The position numbers and the translations under genes are program-made. The notes below the pieces were generated by a model that worked only from the letters and a program-made list of their open reading frames with translations, searched no databases and was not told the origin of the DNA. Shown piece by piece: positions 21,136-39,423 of a stretch of 57,792 bases of DNA; positions within the stretch are counted from its first letter, which is position 1; each line of letters starts with the position of its first letter. This DNA is from Candidatus Gastranaerophilales bacterium (GTDB lineage Bacteria > Cyanobacteriota > Vampirovibrionia > Gastranaerophilales > Gastranaerophilaceae). The stretch spans positions 1 through 57,792 of the forward strand of contig CALVEI010000005.1 of assembly GCA_944326515.1 (NCBI GenBank), written 5' to 3'.

Positions 21136-24100
21136 CTACTTACCAACCTTGATTTGCAAACCGCCTGAGAAACCTATACCTGTTCTTCCACCATTTCTGA
21201 TTGTGAACTGAATAAATCCATTAAAGCGATCTTTAAAGGTTTTAGAAACACCCAAACCATATTCAAAGTATGAATGTCTCATTCTTACATAGCCAAGATC
21301 AATATTACCAGCTCTGCCATCTACACCACCCATAATATTGTAAACCATTTGAGCGGTTGCATAGATGTTAAATGTTTTCTTTTGCCATATCAAGTTAAAT
21401 CCAGGAGCAACGTTAATACCATTGAGCATACCTGAACTCATACTCAATACACCAAAGTCAGAGCCCCAATTTTGAGAGCCGAATGCATTATATGCAGCCA
21501 TTAATGTTGGTTGGAAAATGAAATCAGCAGGCAAGTGAATATTGTACGCTGTTTTAGAAGCAACACCAGCAAACCAATTGCCTGTATTGTCACTACCTGA
21601 ACCAAATTCACCACTCATTGACATATCATTAGCATAGCCTCCACCATAAGCTAATAATGAAGTAATGAAGTTACCTTTATATGCAGTACCCATTAAGCCC
21701 AATTGAGCTCCGTTTTGATACATACTAACACCTCTAAAGTGTTGGTGTGCACCATTATAACCAACATAAGCAGTAGGAACTAAATTCCATCCGTTTTTAA
21801 GTTTGATAAGCGGGAAGTCAGCACCAATTAAAGAACCGTATGCATTGTTGCCTACGCTCAAACCTCTTGTCATTGAAAGACGTTCAAAGTTACCATAAGC
21901 TTTATACCAGAGGCTTCCACCTTTTAAATCATATTGATAAGGTGCAAACTGTGGTTGAGCAGAAGCATATTTGTTTGCTGTCTTTTGGTCATCCATCAAT
22001 TGTCTTGTTATGACATCCATATGGTCGAATAACATATTGTTAACAACCAATTGATTTTGCCAAGATGCAATTGTTGCAACCTGACCTCTATATTGTTGAG
22101 GGTTGAGATAAACAAGAGAACCAGTTAAATTAGGTCCGCCTGCTGAACCGTTAGTTAGGTAATAACGACCCATTGCAGTATTTGCATAAAATGCCGTTGG
22201 ATCATAGTATGGTTGATCTTGAGGATTTCTTTGTTGAATCAATCTGTCAGCATCTAAACTAAATGTTCTGTCAGCAGGTGATGTAACAAAGTTAATACCT
22301 GTAATCAACAATGGAGAGTTTTTATCATTGATAAAGCTATCAACAATAATTGTGTCCATCTTATTGCTATGAGGATCATAGTCAAATGCAACAGGTAATT
22401 TGCCATCTTTTAGGTTTTCACCCAATATCAAATCACCTGCAACATCAATTGTATTGGCGTAATTACCAATCAAACTTAATGACGAATTACCGTCAATATT
22501 CCAATTACCGCCAATAGTTGTATTACCAGCAATTGAGGTAATTGTATTATTTACATCAAGGTTTCCTCCAATATTTGTATTTTTACCTAACAAGTATAAA
22601 CCTGACTGAGTTCCATCTTGTGCATTTGCAATAACATTGCCATCAAATTGAGTTTGATTAGCAATAATGCTCAAATTAGCACTTGCAGAATTAGAACCGA
22701 CAGTCAAATTACCTGTTTGTCTTAAATCGTCACCTTTTTTGAAAATAACTTTGTCTTTATTAGTAAAATTCAAAGTTCCTTCTTTAACATTTACTTCCCC
22801 TGTCATATCAATAGCAGAAGAAATATTTGTTGCAGCAAGTCCTTCTTTATAGATAGAACCACCGCCAACGATTGTTGGGTTATAGTTAACAACGGCATTA
22901 TCATTAATGAAATTCAAAATTGCAGTGTCTTCCATTGTCAAAGTTGAATCATCTTTGATAAATGCGTTATCGCCATAAGAAAGCATTGTGTCTCTCTTAA
23001 GCAAGATATCACCGTTAACACCTGTATAATTACTAAAACCAATATCAATAATACCGTTTTCTTTTCTTTCAAATACAGCTGTGCCGTTTGGTGTTTCAAA
23101 AATAGTTCCGTTTGAAAGAATCAAACCACCATTATTGATATTGATTTGTTTTAAAGAGTCAACATCAACAGTACCATCTGCTTTTAAGATATTGTTGTAA
23201 TACAAGTTGTTTTGGTTAATTAACTCATCAATATCAACAAGCTCAACGCCATCTTGAGTAAAGATTTTATCTTCTACAAAAACTCGACCGTGTGGAGTTG
23301 AAACACCAGCATTTGCTGTTTTATCAAAGTTTGTAACTGTTATATCAGAACCCAACAAAGAACCTTTTTCAAGGTATAAATCACCTGATGTTTCTTTAAT
23401 AATTTTGTTAGGATCATTGTCATCAACATCTATAAAACCGGTAATTTCATTTTTAATACCACCAAAGAAAGTAGATCCAGACTTAACAGTTACACGACCT
23501 GCAGCTTGAACAAAGTTACCTTTAAAACCTGATTGGTCACCATATATATTAATATTCGGAGAGCCTGTTTCTCTGTCATCTTTCATAACAGCTATAGAAC
23601 CATCGCCTGTTACGATTGTATGCCAATCAAGATTTTGAGAAACAAGACCCAAATAACCATCTTTTTCAACATCTATTTCACTGCCTTTTTGGGCAACAGA
23701 ACCTGTACCAAAAGCAAGCTCAGCCCCGTTTGAAACTGATACTTCAGCATCAGAAGCTAAACCAGAACCTGTTCTTAAAGTAATTACAGCATCTTTATCA
23801 TCATCGCCAACACCGTTACCAACAATATTTTGAACACCATGCAATATTGCATTTTCTAAAATACCATTAGTAAAGACAAAGCCTTCTGTAGTTTTATCAC
23901 CAATGTATAAAATATTACCATCTACAAACTTGGCGTTATCTCGACCATCCAAATTCAACACAGGAGTTTTTAAATCTCCTGCTGACAAGTACTGATTTCC
24001 TGATAATTCAACGTCTTTGCCTTCAGCAAGTTTTGCATCTTGTTTGAACAACAATTTACCATGTTCAATCAAGTTTTTTTCAACTCCACCAAAGAAAATT

Positions 24101-27100
24101 GAATCTTTTTCCGCAACAACTGTACCGCCTGTTTGATGATAAGAACCTTCAAACGCTGAGTTATTACTTGTTCTTTTGATTGTTGTTGTACCTTGAGAAA
24201 TATTTACATTACCTTGTCCTTCTATACTACCGGAAATAGTTACTTTGGAATTGTTATCAAATTTTTCAGGATTAACTGTTGTATCATCAGCAATAGTACC
24301 GATGTTCAGATTAGCACCTGCAGCAATTTTAGTTGTAGAACCTTCTACAAGTTCAGCACCGTCTTTTAAGTTCAACGTACCATTTTTTATTTCACTATTT
24401 TTAAAGAATTTACCAAAAACATTAGTAATAAGTTTCTCATCAGCACCCAAAGAAATATTTTCTTGTTTGAAAGTTCCGTTAAAGTTTTCGAATAAATCGT
24501 TTTCTCCAACATTTACAAGGTTTAAAGAACCTTCACCAGAGTGAAGAACCAAACCTTGCCCTTCTATTGCAAAAGTAACATCAGTGTTTTTATTGTTACC
24601 TTCTTCAGAAAATAACTCCAATGTTGCAGCATCTGAATTTATAGTAATTTTATTATCTTTTAAGTTATTAGTATTGGTAAAATCACCGATTCTAATAGTA
24701 CCCGTACCATCTATAATATTTTGCCCTGCTAACGTTACAGCATTGTCAACAGAATCACCTGCTGTTACATCAACAATACCAGCAGAAATTGTATTCTTAC
24801 CGCCAAAGAAAGAATTGCCTGCTTTAACAGTAGTTGTACCGGAACCTGTTTGATTATAACTACCTGTATAACCATGCTGTTTAGCTGATATCGTCACATT
24901 ACCTGTTGATGCATTATTAATATTTCCGCCTTCAACAGTATTTTTAATACTAATGTTTAAAACAAAAGCTGTATCCTTGATATTTAAATCACCGCCATTT
25001 AAGACAATTTTTGTTGTATCGGTTTCACCAATAATCGCATCACCAATAATCGCATCATTTATATTAAAAGATGAACCTGCATCTATTTGGTTTTGTCCTA
25101 AAATTTCAGCACCGTTACCAAAGTCAACAGAGCTGTTTTGAGTAATCAGGTTTTGTCCGTTAAAGAATTTACCGCCTTCAAATTTAGTTTTTCTGTTGCT
25201 TTGAAGATAATTACCGACAAAACCACTGTTATCAGACGTAAACACTAATATTTTAGAATAATCAGCATCAGTAGTATTGGATTTTCTGTCGACATATATC
25301 TTACCGTCACCGCTTAAATCCATTTCGAATTTTCCGCCGGATGTATAAGTATACCCGCTTCCGTCATGGCCTAATTTATACATAGTATCAGCGTCTATTG
25401 TTAAATCAGAGCCTTTGTTTATGGTTAATGTGGAACCGTCGGCAGCAACTGAACCGTCTTCCATTGTTATATGTGCAATTTTGCCTTGTTCACCGCCTAA
25501 TTCATAATGAGCAGTACCCGCAAAACCAGCTTTTTCTGCTAATTTCAAATTAGAATTACTTATCGTTATAGGTGCGTCAGTTGTACCATTATCAAAAATG
25601 GTTTCTGTCATTCTTACATTCGTAAGAACAAAACTGCCACCATCAACGGCTACTTTGTTTCCATCAGTAATTGTATAGCCTTTATCACCATTACCGATAG
25701 TCAATTTAACATCTTCACCTGTAATTTCTATGTCAGAAGAAAGTTTCGCACCGTCTCTGAAGATGAAATTACCATCCATAATGTCGTTGTTGCCACCAAA
25801 GAATGTCCCACCAGTTACTTCAGTAGTACCGTTATTTTGGATAAAATCGCCAACATACTTTGACATATCTCCATTAACAACAAGATATGTATCCTCGCCG
25901 ATGACCTTTATTGTGCCGGTTCCGATTACTGTTCCTTCTATGTGAGATTCTTTACCGTTAGAAGTAGGAACACCATACTGGTCAACAGTATCCGACAAAC
26001 CATTGTTAGAAATATTAATAGTTGTTTTGTCTAAATTAAGTTCTTTTCCGCTTTCAAGAACAATCTGTCCTTTATCATAAATATTAACAGTTGTATTAGT
26101 CAGCTTGCTGTTGCCACCAAAGAACTTGCCTCCTGTAACATTAGCAGCATCGACATCAGCTCCAATACCCTGTTGTCCAATGTTGATTGTTCCTGCTGTC
26201 ATATTAAAGTTGCCATCAAAACCTGATTGGTCACCAGAAATACCAAGAGAATTACCATTCATTGTGATAGTTGCTGAAGAATTATCACCTGTAATATTTC
26301 CATTAGTTAAATTCAGATTTTGGTTAATGTTAACATCACCGCCTGTAATATTTAAATTTGCACCTTGAGCAATAGAGCTGCCGCCTTCAATAGTAACACT
26401 ACCATCTGAGATATTTGAAGTTCCCTTAAAAGTAGCACCTGTTGCAGTTAATGTGCCTCCTGTCATTTTTTCAAGTCCATCTAACACAGCGTTATTTAAA
26501 GCAATACTACCAGCAGAAAGTGTTGTTTTGTCACCATAAAAAGTAACACCACTGCCGATATTAACACTACCGCCATTAATTATATTTGTTGCACTCGCAT
26601 TATTTGACGTATTAATATTGACTATACCGCCGGAAATTGTATTAGTACCTGCCAGTGTAGAACCGTTCTCTAAAGTAACGACAGTATTTTCTCCTGAAAT
26701 ATTGTTTGTACCTGACAAAGTAGCATTATTTTTTACAGTAACTTTACCACCGGAAATATTATTATTTCCGCTAAAAGATTTAGTTTCTACAGTACCGTCA
26801 CCGATTGTTAAGAAACCGCTAACTTGCTCATAAGTTCCATTAAATACGGAATTGTCACCTGTTAACAGCAAATCAGCATTACTGTCTAAAACAATTTTAC
26901 CCGTACCTGTCACATTTCCTGTTAGGTTAGTATCATTATTAATAGAGATAGTTGTGTCAGTCCCACTAAGAGCAATTTTAGAGCCGTCTATTGCATTTGC
27001 CGCAGCAACAACCAACTGTCCACCTTTGATTTGATGAGTATTATTGCCACCAAAGAATGTACCACCAGTTACTTCAGTAGTACCGTTATTTTGGATAAAA

Positions 27101-29226
27101 TCGCCAACATACTTTGACATATCTCCATTAACAACAAGATATGTATCCTCGCCGATGACCTTTATTGTGCCGGTTCCGATTACTGTTCCTTCTATGTGAG
27201 ATTCTTTACCGTTAGAAGTAGGAACACCATACTGGTCAACAGTATCCGACAAACCATTGTTAGAAATATTAATAGTTGTTTTGTCTAAATTAAGTTCTTT
27301 TCCGCTTTCAAGAACAATCTGTCCTTTATCATAAATATTAACAGTTGTATTAGTCAGCTTGCTGTTGCCACCAAAGAACTTGCCTCCTGTAACATTAGCA
27401 GCATCGACATCAGCTCCAATACCCTGTTGTCCAATGTTGATTGTTCCTGCTGTCATATTAAAGTTGCCATCAAAACCTGATTGGTCACCAGAAATACCAA
27501 GAGAATTACCATTCATTGTGATAGTTGCTGAAGAATTATCACCTGTAATATTTCCATTAGTTAAATTCAGATTTTGGTTAATGTTAACATCACCGCCTGT
27601 AATATTTAAATTTGCACCTTGAGCAATAGAGCTGCCGCCTTCAATAGTAACACTACCATCTGAGATATTTGAAGTTCCCTTAAAAGTAGCACCTGTTGCA
27701 GTTAATGTGCCTCCTGTCATTTTTTCAAGTCCATCTAACACAGCGTTATTTAAAGCAATACTACCAGCAGAAAGTGTTGTTTTGTCACCATAAAAAGTAA
27801 CACCACTGCCGATATTAACACTACCGCCATTAATTATATTTGTTGCACTCGCATTATTTGACGTATTAATATTGACTATACCGCCGGAAATTGTATTAGT
27901 ACCTGCCAGTGTAGAACCGTTCTCTAAAGTAACGACAGTATTTTCTCCTGAAATATTGTTTGTACCTGACAAAGTAGCATTATTTTTTACAGTAACTTTA
28001 CCACCGGAAATATTATTATTTCCGCTAAAAGATTTAGTTTCTACAGTACCGTCACCTATCACCAAATTACCTGATGACTGAGAATAAGTACCGTTAAAAA
28101 TACTCTGATCATTCAACAAAGTCAACGTAACATCGTTATTATCTAAAGTAATATTTCCGTTTCCGCTTATATTTCCGTTCATTGTAGTATCAGCATCAAC
28201 ATTAATATTAGCGTCATTGTTGATTGCAATTTTAGAGCCGTCTATTGCATTTGCCGCAGCAAGAACCAATTCTCCACCATTAATTTGATGAATATTGCTA
28301 CCGCCAAAGAAAGTACCGTTAACTACTGTTGAACCTGCAGTTTGAGTATAAGAGCCTTCATAATTAGCGTTTTGAGAACCGGCCTCTAATGTCAAATTTC
28401 CGCTATTTACTATAGTCGCATTTTCTGACCCTGCTATACCACTACCAATACTAACAGTACCACTGGTGTTCAAAGCAGCATCGCCATCTAAATATATATC
28501 ATTTGCACCATTCTTATCAGTGTTCCCTGAAAAAGTAGCATCACCTATATTAATAGAACCAGCTCCTGAATAGATAGCCCCACCTATACCACCAGTTACA
28601 CGATTACCAGAGAATATAGAGTTTACGTTACTCAAATCAATAACAGGAGTCCCACCGGGTCTTGTTTGTAGATTTAGTATCGCCCCACCGTCACCAACTG
28701 CTGTGTTATTTTCAAAACGAACAGTTGCACCGTCCTTAAAAGAAATATTGCCATCAAAGTTAACAATAGCTCCACCGCCAAAAAAGTGATTAACAGAGTC
28801 AACTGCACTTGTGGAAGTGTTACCAATAAAAGAAGTATTTCCATTAAACTTAACCGTGCCTTCATTGTAAATGGCACCACCACGATTGGCTGTATTCTTT
28901 TCAAAAGTCGAATTGCCAATAACATTAACTGTTTGACTTATGTTATAAGCCCCGTTGTAGATACCACCACCGGCGTCAACAGCCTGATTTCCAGTATATG
29001 ATTGAGATTCTCCATTTAAGTTAACATTTTTGCCGCTATAATAATTACTAACAGCCCCTTGTTTACCACCGGTAATACCAGTCATCTCACCTACAGTATA
29101 ATCTGTAGTTTCTGTATTTGGTCTGACTAAAATCTGCCCGCTCGTATCAGAAAAAGCTGCACCACCCGACATTGCACACAGAAGCAAAAAAGACGCCACC
29201 ATTCGCTTTGTTTTGGTTTTACTCAT
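21136..29226 (-). CDS. Giant autotransporter (type Va) with repetitive passenger
   Basis: A 2696-residue surface protein. A signal peptide (1-26, MSKTKTKRMVASFLLLCAMS, cut near AAFS) leads into an Asn/Gly/Thr/Ser-rich passenger predicted to be a beta-helix. It ends in an autotransporter beta-barrel of about residues 2436-2696 (starts SLWYKAYGNF, ends GLQIKVGK). The passenger repeats a motif of about G.Y.Q..G...V..G..FFGG.N.I at least eight times. Residues about 391-728 recur almost identically at 809-1146. The last residue is Lys, whereas many such barrels end in an aromatic. An AGGAG site lies 7 nt upstream of the ATG. No passenger enzyme domain is seen; adhesion is a guess. Confidence 0.92.
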   Translation of the reverse strand: MSKTKTKRMVASFLLLCAMSGGAAFSDTSGQILVRPNTETTDYTVGEMTGITGGKQGAVSNYYSGKNVNLNGESQSYTGNQAVDAGGGIYNGAYNISQTVNVIGNSTFEKNTANRGGAIYNEGTVKFNGNTSFIGNTSTSAVDSVNHFFGGGAIVNFDGNISFKDGATVRFENNTAVGDGGAILNLQTRPGGTPVIDLSNVNSIFSGNRVTGGIGGAIYSGAGSINIGDATFSGNTDKNGANDIYLDGDAALNTSGTVSIGSGIAGSENATIVNSGNLTLEAGSQNANYEGSYTQTAGSTVVNGTFFGGSNIHQINGGELVLAAANAIDGSKIAINNDANINVDADTTMNGNISGNGNITLDNNDVTLTLLNDQSIFNGTYSQSSGNLVIGDGTVETKSFSGNNNISGGKVTVKNNATLSGTNNISGENTVVTLENGSTLAGTNTISGGIVNINTSNNASATNIINGGSVNIGSGVTFYGDKTTLSAGSIALNNAVLDGLEKMTGGTLTATGATFKGTSNISDGSVTIEGGSSIAQGANLNITGGDVNINQNLNLTNGNITGDNSSATITMNGNSLGISGDQSGFDGNFNMTAGTINIGQQGIGADVDAANVTGGKFFGGNSKLTNTTVNIYDKGQIVLESGKELNLDKTTINISNNGLSDTVDQYGVPTSNGKESHIEGTVIGTGTIKVIGEDTYLVVNGDMSKYVGDFIQNNGTTEVTGGTFFGGNNTHQIKGGQLVVAAANAIDGSKIALSGTDTTISINNDTNLTGNVTGTGKIVLDSNADLLLTGDNSVFNGTYEQVSGFLTIGDGTVETKSFSGNNNISGGKVTVKNNATLSGTNNISGENTVVTLENGSTLAGTNTISGGIVNINTSNNASATNIINGGSVNIGSGVTFYGDKTTLSAGSIALNNAVLDGLEKMTGGTLTATGATFKGTSNISDGSVTIEGGSSIAQGANLNITGGDVNINQNLNLTNGNITGDNSSATITMNGNSLGISGDQSGFDGNFNMTAGTINIGQQGIGADVDAANVTGGKFFGGNSKLTNTTVNIYDKGQIVLESGKELNLDKTTINISNNGLSDTVDQYGVPTSNGKESHIEGTVIGTGTIKVIGEDTYLVVNGDMSKYVGDFIQNNGTTEVTGGTFFGGNNDIMDGNFIFRDGAKLSSDIEITGEDVKLTIGNGDKGYTITDGNKVAVDGGSFVLTNVRMTETIFDNGTTDAPITISNSNLKLAEKAGFAGTAHYELGGEQGKIAHITMEDGSVAADGSTLTINKGSDLTIDADTMYKLGHDGSGYTYTSGGKFEMDLSGDGKIYVDRKSNTTDADYSKILVFTSDNSGFVGNYLQSNRKTKFEGGKFFNGQNLITQNSSVDFGNGAEILGQNQIDAGSSFNINDAIIGDAIIGETDTTKIVLNGGDLNIKDTAFVLNISIKNTVEGGNINNASTGNVTISAKQHGYTGSYNQTGSGTTTVKAGNSFFGGKNTISAGIVDVTAGDSVDNAVTLAGQNIIDGTGTIRIGDFTNTNNLKDNKITINSDAATLELFSEEGNNKNTDVTFAIEGQGLVLHSGEGSLNLVNVGENDLFENFNGTFKQENISLGADEKLITNVFGKFFKNSEIKNGTLNLKDGAELVEGSTTKIAAGANLNIGTIADDTTVNPEKFDNNSKVTISGSIEGQGNVNISQGTTTIKRTSNNSAFEGSYHQTGGTVVAEKDSIFFGGVEKNLIEHGKLLFKQDAKLAEGKDVELSGNQYLSAGDLKTPVLNLDGRDNAKFVDGNILYIGDKTTEGFVFTNGILENAILHGVQNIVGNGVGDDDKDAVITLRTGSGLASDAEVSVSNGAELAFGTGSVAQKGSEIDVEKDGYLGLVSQNLDWHTIVTGDGSIAVMKDDRETGSPNINIYGDQSGFKGNFVQAAGRVTVKSGSTFFGGIKNEITGFIDVDDNDPNKIIKETSGDLYLEKGSLLGSDITVTNFDKTANAGVSTPHGRVFVEDKIFTQDGVELVDIDELINQNNLYYNNILKADGTVDVDSLKQININNGGLILSNGTIFETPNGTAVFERKENGIIDIGFSNYTGVNGDILLKRDTMLSYGDNAFIKDDSTLTMEDTAILNFINDNAVVNYNPTIVGGGSIYKEGLAATNISSAIDMTGEVNVKEGTLNFTNKDKVIFKKGDDLRQTGNLTVGSNSASANLSIIANQTQFDGNVIANAQDGTQSGLYLLGKNTNIGGNLDVNNTITSIAGNTTIGGNWNIDGNSSLSLIGNYANTIDVAGDLILGENLKDGKLPVAFDYDPHSNKMDTIIVDSFINDKNSPLLITGINFVTSPADRTFSLDADRLIQQRNPQDQPYYDPTAFYANTAMGRYYLTNGSAGGPNLTGSLVYLNPQQYRGQVATIASWQNQLVVNNMLFDHMDVITRQLMDDQKTANKYASAQPQFAPYQYDLKGGSLWYKAYGNFERLSMTRGLSVGNNAYGSLIGADFPLIKLKNGWNLVPTAYVGYNGAHQHFRGVSMYQNGAQLGLMGTAYKGNFITSLLAYGGGYANDMSMSGEFGSGSDNTGNWFAGVASKTAYNIHLPADFIFQPTLMAAYNAFGSQNWGSDFGVLSMSSGMLNGINVAPGFNLIWQKKTFNIYATAQMVYNIMGGVDGRAGNIDLGYVRMRHSYFEYGLGVSKTFKDRFNGFIQFTIRNGGRTGIGFSGGLQIKVGK
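25026..25055. repeat. 15-bp perfect tandem repeat inside the autotransporter
   Basis: CACCAATAATCGCAT occurs twice head to tail, encoding a doubled DAIIG segment. It keeps the reading frame and looks like a small slippage event. Confidence 0.85.
25790..26802. repeat. Large direct repeat, copy 2 (autotransporter residues about 809-1146)
   Basis: About 1013 bp matching 27044-28056 at an offset of exactly 1254 bp. I saw one difference, near the edge (25807 C versus 27061 A), on reading the aligned lines; a full alignment was not run. Confidence 0.93.
27044..28056. repeat. Large direct repeat, copy 1 (autotransporter residues about 391-728)
   Basis: Matches 25790-26802. The segments that precede each copy in the coding direction (28057 to about 28300 and 26803-27043) are clearly related but diverged, apart from a short identical stretch around 28227-28260 / 26973-27006. 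Confidence 0.93.
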
Positions 29227-37526: not shown

Positions 37527-38978
37527 ATGATTAAATTATTTTCACACATCTCTTTTAGAGGTATTCCTCAAAAAGAATCAGACAAAAACACAGAAAAAGT
37601 CAAAACAACAACCACACCTAATACGCTTGAAAGAACACCATCAATAGATACATTTGTTCCAACTGTTGAAACTGCATCTGCAGCAAGAGCTAAAAAAGCA
37701 AACGCATTAACACAGGCTCAAACGCTCAGAGACTACGAACTTGTAAAAAAAGAAGGATTATTTAATGATGAACTACTTTTTCTTTTACAACCAAAAACAA
37801 CAGCAAGCGGTTCAAAAACATTCACACCAAATCAAACAAAAATAATAAATCTTGCAGCAAAGAAAATTTCTTTTTATAAGGGTATTGCAAAAAGACTTGA
37901 AACATCGGGTACAGAATCCATTGATAGAGTAATAAAAGATATAAAAACTGTCTTTGGTGGAGAAAAAAATTACGGAAAATATCTCAAAGCAAGAAGTAAA
38001 AACGGTAAACCAACATCGAAAGAAGCCGTTTCTATATACAACAAAATAACAAAAGAATTTCTAGACAAAAAAATAAATGGTGAGGTTATGAACATTTTTG
38101 CAAAACGTTTATACCAAAAGCCATATAAACTATTGGATAAAACAGAAAAAGAACTCGTAAAACTTTCTATAATGGATGGAGATGTAAAACTTGATTCAAG
38201 AGACTACAAAGTTCTCGAAAAAGTCTTAGGTACTTCTAAAAAAGACTACGAAGAAGCCGTAGACTGGATAAAAGACTTAATAGGCTTAAGAATGATTATT
38301 CCGGAAGATGCGGATATGAACAAGGCTGCAGAATACCTAACAAAAGCAATTTTATCAGGAAAGCTTAACGTAACAAGAGTTAGCAACTACCACTCAAAAC
38401 ACATTTACCCATACATAAGCCAAGATACCGTAAAATTATGGAAACAATCAGTCCCAGGTATTGAGCTTGTACAATCAAATGCGATAAGAAAGAAAAACGG
38501 TTACACAACAACCCAAATGAATATATTGCATGAAATAAAAGACAAAAACGGAAAGGTAAGACCTGTTTGGGTAGAATTGCAAATAAGAAGTGAGCAACTA
38601 AATAAAATAGGCCAAATTGAGCACTTAATATACGATATTTTGGCTAATAAAAACATAGGTAAAAATATTCCTGAGCTGGAAAAATATTACGAAACAATTG
38701 GTATCAAAAAAGCAGTAAAAGAAGTTTTTGGTAATCCTACAAAAGAAAATGCTTACGTTGACTACGAAAGAGCAATGTATTCTTGGATCAGACACAATGA
38801 AAATCCAAAATCAAAAGCAATACTTTCTTACGACAAACCAATTCTTACAGAATTTGGACTGGGTGAATACGAACATCTTTTGAGCTTTGAATCACTAGAC
38901 AGAATTGACGAAACAGCCACACTTTTAAAAGCAAAATACGGAAAACCCACACACACTGGCACGAAAGAAAAAAAATAA
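37527..38978 (+). CDS. Divergent RelA/SpoT-fold nucleotidyltransferase
   Basis: A 483-aa protein. Residues 1-60 are a Thr/Lys/Ser-rich leader; 60-150 are helical. From about 150 to 370 the order of motifs follows the RelA/SpoT synthetase domain: KARSKNG...SIYNKI (154-174), DLIGLRMII (250-258; Asp250 and Arg255), KKNGYTTTQMN (322-332, matching the NGYqSlH loop but with Gln for His) and VELQIRS (349-355, Glu350), then HLIYDIL. No HD hydrolase or TGS/ACT domain is present. A long insert separates the first two motifs. It may make (p)ppGpp-type alarmones or pyrophosphorylate another target such as tRNA. Probably cotranscribed with the 138-aa gene 28 nt downstream. Confidence 0.72.
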   Translation: MIKLFSHISFRGIPQKESDKNTEKVKTTTTPNTLERTPSIDTFVPTVETASAARAKKANALTQAQTLRDYELVKKEGLFNDELLFLLQPKTTASGSKTFTPNQTKIINLAAKKISFYKGIAKRLETSGTESIDRVIKDIKTVFGGEKNYGKYLKARSKNGKPTSKEAVSIYNKITKEFLDKKINGEVMNIFAKRLYQKPYKLLDKTEKELVKLSIMDGDVKLDSRDYKVLEKVLGTSKKDYEEAVDWIKDLIGLRMIIPEDADMNKAAEYLTKAILSGKLNVTRVSNYHSKHIYPYISQDTVKLWKQSVPGIELVQSNAIRKKNGYTTTQMNILHEIKDKNGKVRPVWVELQIRSEQLNKIGQIEHLIYDILANKNIGKNIPELEKYYETIGIKKAVKEVFGNPTKENAYVDYERAMYSWIRHNENPKSKAILSYDKPILTEFGLGEYEHLLSFESLDRIDETATLLKAKYGKPTHTGTKEKK

Positions 38979-39006
38979 TAACAATAAATATCGGAGATAA
39001 ATAAAA

Positions 39007-39423
39007 ATGAACAAGTTAAATCTAACAACAACGACACAAAGAATATTAAGACATAGAATTCCTAATGCTACAGCACCAAGCTATTCACAAAAGATGGATG
39101 CAGCAATAAAGCAATTAAAAGATGCATTTGCTCAAGTGGTTGAAATAGGTAAATTTAAACCGATAAAAGCTGATATAACTGAACCATTAAAAGATTCAAC
39201 AATAAAAAAAGCTTCTATAATAATAGAACCGCTTGCAAATAAAAATGATTTTAGAACAAGAACTATTTCTTTTATTGCTTATTCACCAACAGAAGCAGGA
39301 AAAATACACGATGTAACAATAGCTAACGGAAATAAATTTGCAATAGAATCTGCGTTAAAAAACCCTCAACTAAAAACCGCATTCAAAGATTTTATTAAAA
39401 ATGCAGAAATAGCGCTTACATAA
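39007..39423 (+). CDS. Hypothetical small basic protein paired with the RelA/SpoT-like gene
   Basis: 138 aa, no family recognised. It is basic, with a Thr/Arg-rich N-terminus (1-25), then a helix-rich segment and a beta-rich middle. CGGAG precedes the ATG. The 28-nt spacing with no terminator implies one transcript with the preceding gene; an immunity or antitoxin role is conceivable but unproven. Convergent with hydE; only 5 nt separate the stops. Confidence 0.65.
   Translation: MNKLNLTTTTQRILRHRIPNATAPSYSQKMDAAIKQLKDAFAQVVEIGKFKPIKADITEPLKDSTIKKASIIIEPLANKNDFRTRTISFIAYSPTEAGKIHDVTIANGNKFAIESALKNPQLKTAFKDFIKNAEIALT

Follow-up and report, generated by a model that had tools for sequence, protein, structure and literature searches.

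A divergent RelA/SpoT-type synthetase and its linked small protein in Gastranaerophilales, probably a growth inhibitor and its neutraliser

The window analysed here, a stretch of 57,792 nucleotides from a Candidatus Gastranaerophilales bacterium, contains two adjacent genes, called A and B below. The first resembles an alarmone synthetase, and the second was thought to match nothing recognised. The locus raises the question of whether the two genes form a functional pair and, if so, what the small protein does for the synthetase. The features of the locus are as follows.

37527..38978, + strand: ORF A, a divergent RelA/SpoT-type synthetase with one catalytic domain, 483 aa (Pfam, fold match, conservation in the genus)
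37527..37667, + strand: Thr/Lys-rich disordered leader of A, residues 1–47, containing ISFRG and LERTPSIDTF (pLDDT below 50; related motifs in relatives)
37674..37952, + strand: helical region of A ahead of the catalytic domain, residues 50–142 (helices H50–76, H81–86 and H101–142 in the model)
37992..38054, + strand: ATP-binding motif of A, R156...K165...S169...K173..K176 (alignment of 43 relatives, FaRel2 residues)
38055..38273, + strand: helical 73-residue insert of A between the ATP motif and the metal Asp, residues 177–249 (model)
38274..38291, + strand: Asp250 (metal-binding) and Arg255 of A (invariant in 43 aligned relatives)
38496..38516, + strand: syn3 acceptor-site loop of A, N324-GYTTTQ-330 (Gln replaces the His of RelA; Tyr326 is kept)
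38574..38582, + strand: Glu350-Leu-Gln352 of A (Glu350 and Gln352 each in at least 90% of relatives)
38979..39006, + strand: A–B spacer, 28 nt, with GGAG at 38993–38996 before the ATG of B (no + strand terminator-like site)
39007..39423, + strand: ORF B, the partner, 138 aa (after A in 22 of 22 loci of the genus and across genera)

Both frames were found where the original prediction had placed them, 28 nt apart with no terminator-like site on the + strand between them. Protein A scores above the cut-off of Pfam RelA_SpoT (PF04607; 31.2 bits against 27, E = 2.8e-7, residues 230–367), as the original prediction expected. This is the only Pfam domain above cut-off: HD, TGS and ACT domains are all absent, in agreement with the claim that A has no hydrolase or regulatory domain. 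A search of the PDB with A as a single sequence gave no match; the matches came with a profile of 43 relatives, which found YwaC, RelP, YjbM and Rel with a best E of 1.1e-9.

The structure of A was predicted using AlphaFold (mean pLDDT 82) and has the synthetase fold that had been supposed. Foldseek places alarmone synthetases first with a probability of 1.00, though with an E value of only about 1e-3, and VIA gives SaEAS (Z 11.0 over 192 residues), CapRel (Z 10.8), RelP (Z 10.4) and Tas1 (Z 7.7). The residues invariant or nearly so in the 43 relatives are R156, K165, K173, D250, G253, R255, Y288, Y296, G325, Y326, E350 and Q352, of which K165, D250, R255 and Y326 are fully invariant and R156 and K173 occur in at least 90%. 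Residues of A, including S169, match R64, K66, S70, K74, D90, R95, Y128, E145 and Q147 of FaRel2, whose ATP motif is R64-x-K66-x3-S70-x3-K74-x2-R77 (PMC11782079). The spacing within motifs is the same in the two proteins, allowing for seven extra residues in the ATP motif of A (R156–K165), which are not present in relatives such as L016. Between motifs the two differ: 73 residues separate K176 from D250, as against 12 in FaRel2. In the model, helices at 167–196, 205–216, 224–233 and 238–247 make up this insert, whose length varies among the 43 relatives. Asp250, Glu350, the motif order, the Gln of NGYTTTQ (324–330) and the long insert are thus all as first described. By its Pfam score, predicted fold and ATP, metal and acceptor-Tyr residues, A is a member of the RelA/SpoT superfamily, and a degenerate enzyme is ruled out by the intact catalytic residues and low dN/dS. 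It is not the housekeeping enzyme, because a canonical Rel with the loop SNMYRSLH is encoded in the same genome.

The leader of A had been called unusual; its residues 1–47 are predicted to be disordered. The LERTPxxDT motif within it is shared by window-type A proteins of the genus; a leader motif approximating NLxPLxxDTVSFxA/G ends the disordered N-terminus of partnerless A proteins with a His loop (L119–L149 and others, for example L141 and L128), and the leader motif is almost absent from the other proteins of these loci. A second N-terminal motif, [STPN]F[GKRQ][GAK], is seen as ISFRG in A (37548–37562 of the window) and as NFKG in many B proteins. Its frequency is 8.4% among N-terminal stretches of 60 aa and 1.8% among internal stretches, part of the excess coming from lptC orthologues, and it is possibly a lineage-wide sorting signal.

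Protein B is predicted, with fair confidence, to consist of a helix, four strands and two helices, following 17 disordered N-terminal residues (pLDDT 83.7). It has no match in Pfam, NCBIfam or PADLOC and no credible solved relative in the PDB. In fold searches the best results were a VIA Z of 6.8 (Pur-alpha) and a Foldseek E of 0.11, both within the range of chance. Comparison with the known antitoxin types (pZFD, Tis1-like, hydrolase) gave no sequence or family match and no confident fold match; matches at chance level argue neither for nor against a Tis1-like or other fold. Neither the databases (Pfam, NCBIfam, PADLOC, PHROGs and PDB) nor the literature searched yielded a described module with B as partner, which bears out the original impression that the pair matches no recognised module. 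B was also described as basic. Its pI of 9.9 agrees with this; as a distinguishing trait it fails, since A is basic too (pI 9.5).

The two genes are linked almost without exception. Of the 23 genomes of the genus, 22 have an intact window-type A, the remaining genome being 80% complete, and B directly follows A in all 22. A profile search of contigs, using an alignment narrower than the diverse set of 43 relatives, found 27 A loci: 26 have B right behind A, and one stops at a contig edge. Among 117 genomes of the order, A occurs in 76 and B in 53. For the A-domain genes of Gastranaerophilales with Gln or Asn in the acceptor-site loop, a B gene lies behind on the same strand at 70 of 72 decidable loci, and the linkage holds for A proteins from 307 to more than 3300 residues long. 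B keeps its place behind the end of the reading frame also when that frame, of about 1200 to 3330 residues, has the A domain in its interior, as in proteins of 2000–3300 aa, and it therefore accompanies the A protein rather than a C-terminus. The co-occurrence in relatives foreseen by the original prediction thus holds, down to about 20% identity. No B was seen outside Gastranaerophilales in 194 genomes of the phylum; the B matches listed from these all belong to the family of the window, and the sample of the order adds two genomes from another family.

A second A–B pair is present in the window's own genome (L101:1977-3442, contig 1), of the Asn-loop class and encoding 337 and 126 aa. A weak B-like match elsewhere (G034:C2:84684-85046, E = 1.9e-4) has no A domain near it and is possibly an orphan partner.

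Within the genus the locus is syntenic, set between lptC/lptA and a radical-SAM gene plus mnmA: the pair is inherited vertically rather than being mobile. Mean tree distances are 1.21 for A and 1.68 for B, compared to 0.33 for lptC and 0.26 for lptA, so that A and B diverge some 4–6 times faster than their neighbours. The distances of A and B correlate with each other (r = 0.81), and this is maintained when the lptC/lptA signal is removed (partial r = 0.84, permutation p = 0.0005). In close pairs dN/dS is 0.03–0.12 for A and B alike, and both are under purifying selection. It is clear that throughout the order A and B are passed on together and coevolve, and linkage and coevolution together rule out that they are chance neighbours. 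A mobile toxin–antitoxin module is likewise ruled out, by the synteny in the genus and because searches of phage records, plasmids and viral contigs turned up no relative of A. At two loci, L092 and L093, the flanks are 82–84% identical to the window while A is only 37–42% and B about 20% identical. This gap implies that A and B changed together, by divergence or by replacement, and suggests replacement in place or a joint acceleration.

Residue 330 of A is Gln where RelA has His. The loop is thus TxQ, and the SxH guanosine loop of small alarmone synthetases that make (p)ppGpp is absent. At this site SxH goes with guanosine recognition and GxN with (p)ppApp synthetases (PMC12226406), and TxQ and AxQ, the Gln loops seen here, are neither. 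Swapping the syn motifs left the specificity of Apk2 unaltered (PMC12226406), and the identity of the acceptor therefore cannot be proved from the loop alone. A relation between loop and partner was first read off the loci, after which 31 loci without a recognised B and nine with one were fetched. All nine with B have Gln at the loop position. Of the 31, 24 have a His loop, none of them with B, and seven have Gln or Asn; six of these seven proved to have a correctly placed partner, which had escaped the first profile or received a weak score from it. In the combined set, in which counts are of loci that include close relatives and are not independent events, Gln/Asn loops occur with B at 70 loci and without it at two (L026 and L151), with one undecided; His loops occur with B at none and without it at 31. 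The set also holds one degenerate Val copy, which has no B. The partnerless His-loop genes (31 of 31) keep nearly all the same catalytic residues. In a tree made with the loop columns left out, His, Asn and Gln form separate clades, with three changes of loop and four of partner status. The association is strong but at the level of clades: it falls on few branches, from one or a few events, which are too few independent contrasts for a statistical test. With the catalytic residues retained in every class, the most economical interpretation is that the Gln/Asn enzymes would use another acceptor, would be harmful to the host, and hence keep B as a neutraliser. One locus (L064:1209-3187) has two tandem copies of A without a partner, and in one copy several catalytic residues are gone.

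Alongside the fold, the conservation of the catalytic residues, the obligate linkage, the coevolution and the purifying selection that the analysis established, we propose, with a probability of about 0.58, that A is a toxSAS-like non-guanosine pyrophosphokinase, toxic if unchecked, and that B is its dedicated neutraliser. As a catalytically competent RelA/SpoT-fold enzyme, A would use ATP to pyrophosphorylate the 3'-OH of an acceptor, which is probably not GTP or GDP and would most likely be an adenosine nucleotide (ATP/ADP) or tRNA, the latter at its 3' adenosine. Unchecked, this activity would be expected to arrest growth. B, translated just after A, would act as an immunity or antitoxin protein that binds and neutralises it. 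In the genus of the window the pair stands alone on the chromosome and is passed on vertically; elsewhere in the order the A domain lies within very large multi-domain proteins, which may be exported, followed by B, as in effector–immunity loci. What speaks against a neutraliser is that no antitoxin or immunity fold already known was matched with confidence by B.

A pair that is near-universal, syntenic and strongly constrained within a genus is unusual for a mobile toxin–antitoxin system, and could also be expected of a regulated housekeeping enzyme, in which a signal would induce A to make an alarmone, with B as an activating or sensing subunit. This is the main rival and draws further on the low dN/dS, the intact catalytic residues of A and its absence from phages and plasmids; we nevertheless think it unlikely. 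An enzyme of this kind sits poorly with a divergence 4–6 times that of lptC/lptA, with its patchy occurrence in the family (76 genomes for A and 53 for B among the 117 of the order), with the grafting of the A domain into giant variable proteins that retain B, and with the canonical Rel already in the genome.

The giant relatives bring in a further rival. Several loci (L055, L058 and L102–L109) encode very large multi-domain proteins, in frames of up to about 4366 aa and with exchangeable modules, in which the A domain is central or C-terminal; one carries a GNAT acetyltransferase domain, and the giant A proteins all fall in the Gln group. The N-terminal module of some giants recurs in large proteins without an A domain, as is expected of exchangeable effector parts; this concerns the giants and not the A of the window. 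These features, and the existence of exported alarmone synthetases (PMC12691689), favour a protein A that is secreted against other cells, with B as a chaperone for its secretion, or as a chaperone that doubles as immunity protein. The A of the window, however, has neither a hydrophobic Sec signal in its sequence nor a known trafficking domain in Pfam, and no secretion locus adjoins the pair. The contractile sheath family was found in three of the 23 genomes of the genus, over cut-off in only two of these, and not in the genome of the window; contractile injection is rejected as a delivery route, the sheath being absent from most of the genus. The position of B behind giants, even those with a central A domain, fits immunity as well as it fits a chaperone, and we consider the reading of an exported A with B as its chaperone rather improbable. 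The window itself also contains a 2696-aa ORF (21136–29226, − strand) whose only match, to the Chlamydia PMP repeat, falls short of the threshold (18 against 20.6 bits), and which is likely to be a giant surface protein.

A CapRel-like abortive infection pair, in which B would sense a phage product and release A, gains from the closeness of A to CapRel (Z 10.8) and from the role of tRNA-modifying toxSAS in phage defence (PMC11559606), but is very improbable for a locus that has no PADLOC match, no defence genes around it and a fixed place in the genus rather than in a variable island.

Returning to the reading of A as a toxic synthetase held in check by B, both toxSAS and effector alarmone synthetases are known to have small adjacent neutralisers (PMC11782079, PMC12691689). 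The toxSAS systems (FaRel2/ATfaRel2 and CapRel, the latter tied for best structural match to A) share with A–B a single synthetase domain, the same ATP and metal residues and a small adjacent partner. They differ in that B is unlike their antitoxins in all searches, and that the A–B locus has the enzyme gene first, a large helical insert, the TxQ loop and a fixed, vertically inherited position, the toxicity of A being presumed. Apk1/Tas1–Tis1 and MuF-Apk2/IapK resemble A–B in having an effector-type synthetase domain, sometimes within a large protein, and then a small gene. A–B has no PAAR or MuF, however, and its loop is TxQ/AxQ or RxN where theirs is GxN; Tas1 matches A less well in structure (Z 7.7), and B has no sequence link that we could find to Tis1 or IapK. 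EAS proteins give the best structural match (SaEAS, Z 11.0) and share a predicted activity outside normal stringent control, but SaEAS carries a Sec signal and lacks a partner gene, and A shows the reverse. The text of the EAS paper (PMC12691689) does not mention Cyanobacteria or Melainabacteria.

RelP and RelQ share the fold and core motifs of A, which is more than twice as long. They keep SxH and are not known to have a partner gene. The nearest precedent is that of the RelA/SpoT toxin domains of polymorphic toxins, which are known with immunity genes (PMC3482391, PMC12691689).

The pairing of a divergent synthetase with B has no earlier description for this lineage, and is probably that of a growth inhibitor and its neutraliser. 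More speculatively, and we regard this as unlikely, Gln-loop A proteins could be pyrophosphokinases with an acceptor new to alarmone synthetases, recurring as the active domain in a system of giant multi-domain effectors specific to Gastranaerophilales, with the pair in the window a domesticated form that stands alone and B, its guard, a new immunity fold.

Work on alarmone synthetases that are toxic or exported is topical, and what determines their choice of acceptor is an unsolved question. A natural contrast is at hand in this superfamily, between a His clade without partners and Gln and Asn clades that nearly always have them, on essentially the same catalytic residues. Comparison of the clades would test whether the loop sets the acceptor and so the need for a neutraliser. 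The literature searched holds no link between alarmones and the non-photosynthetic gut relatives of cyanobacteria, for which the A–B pair is a candidate system of growth control or conflict.
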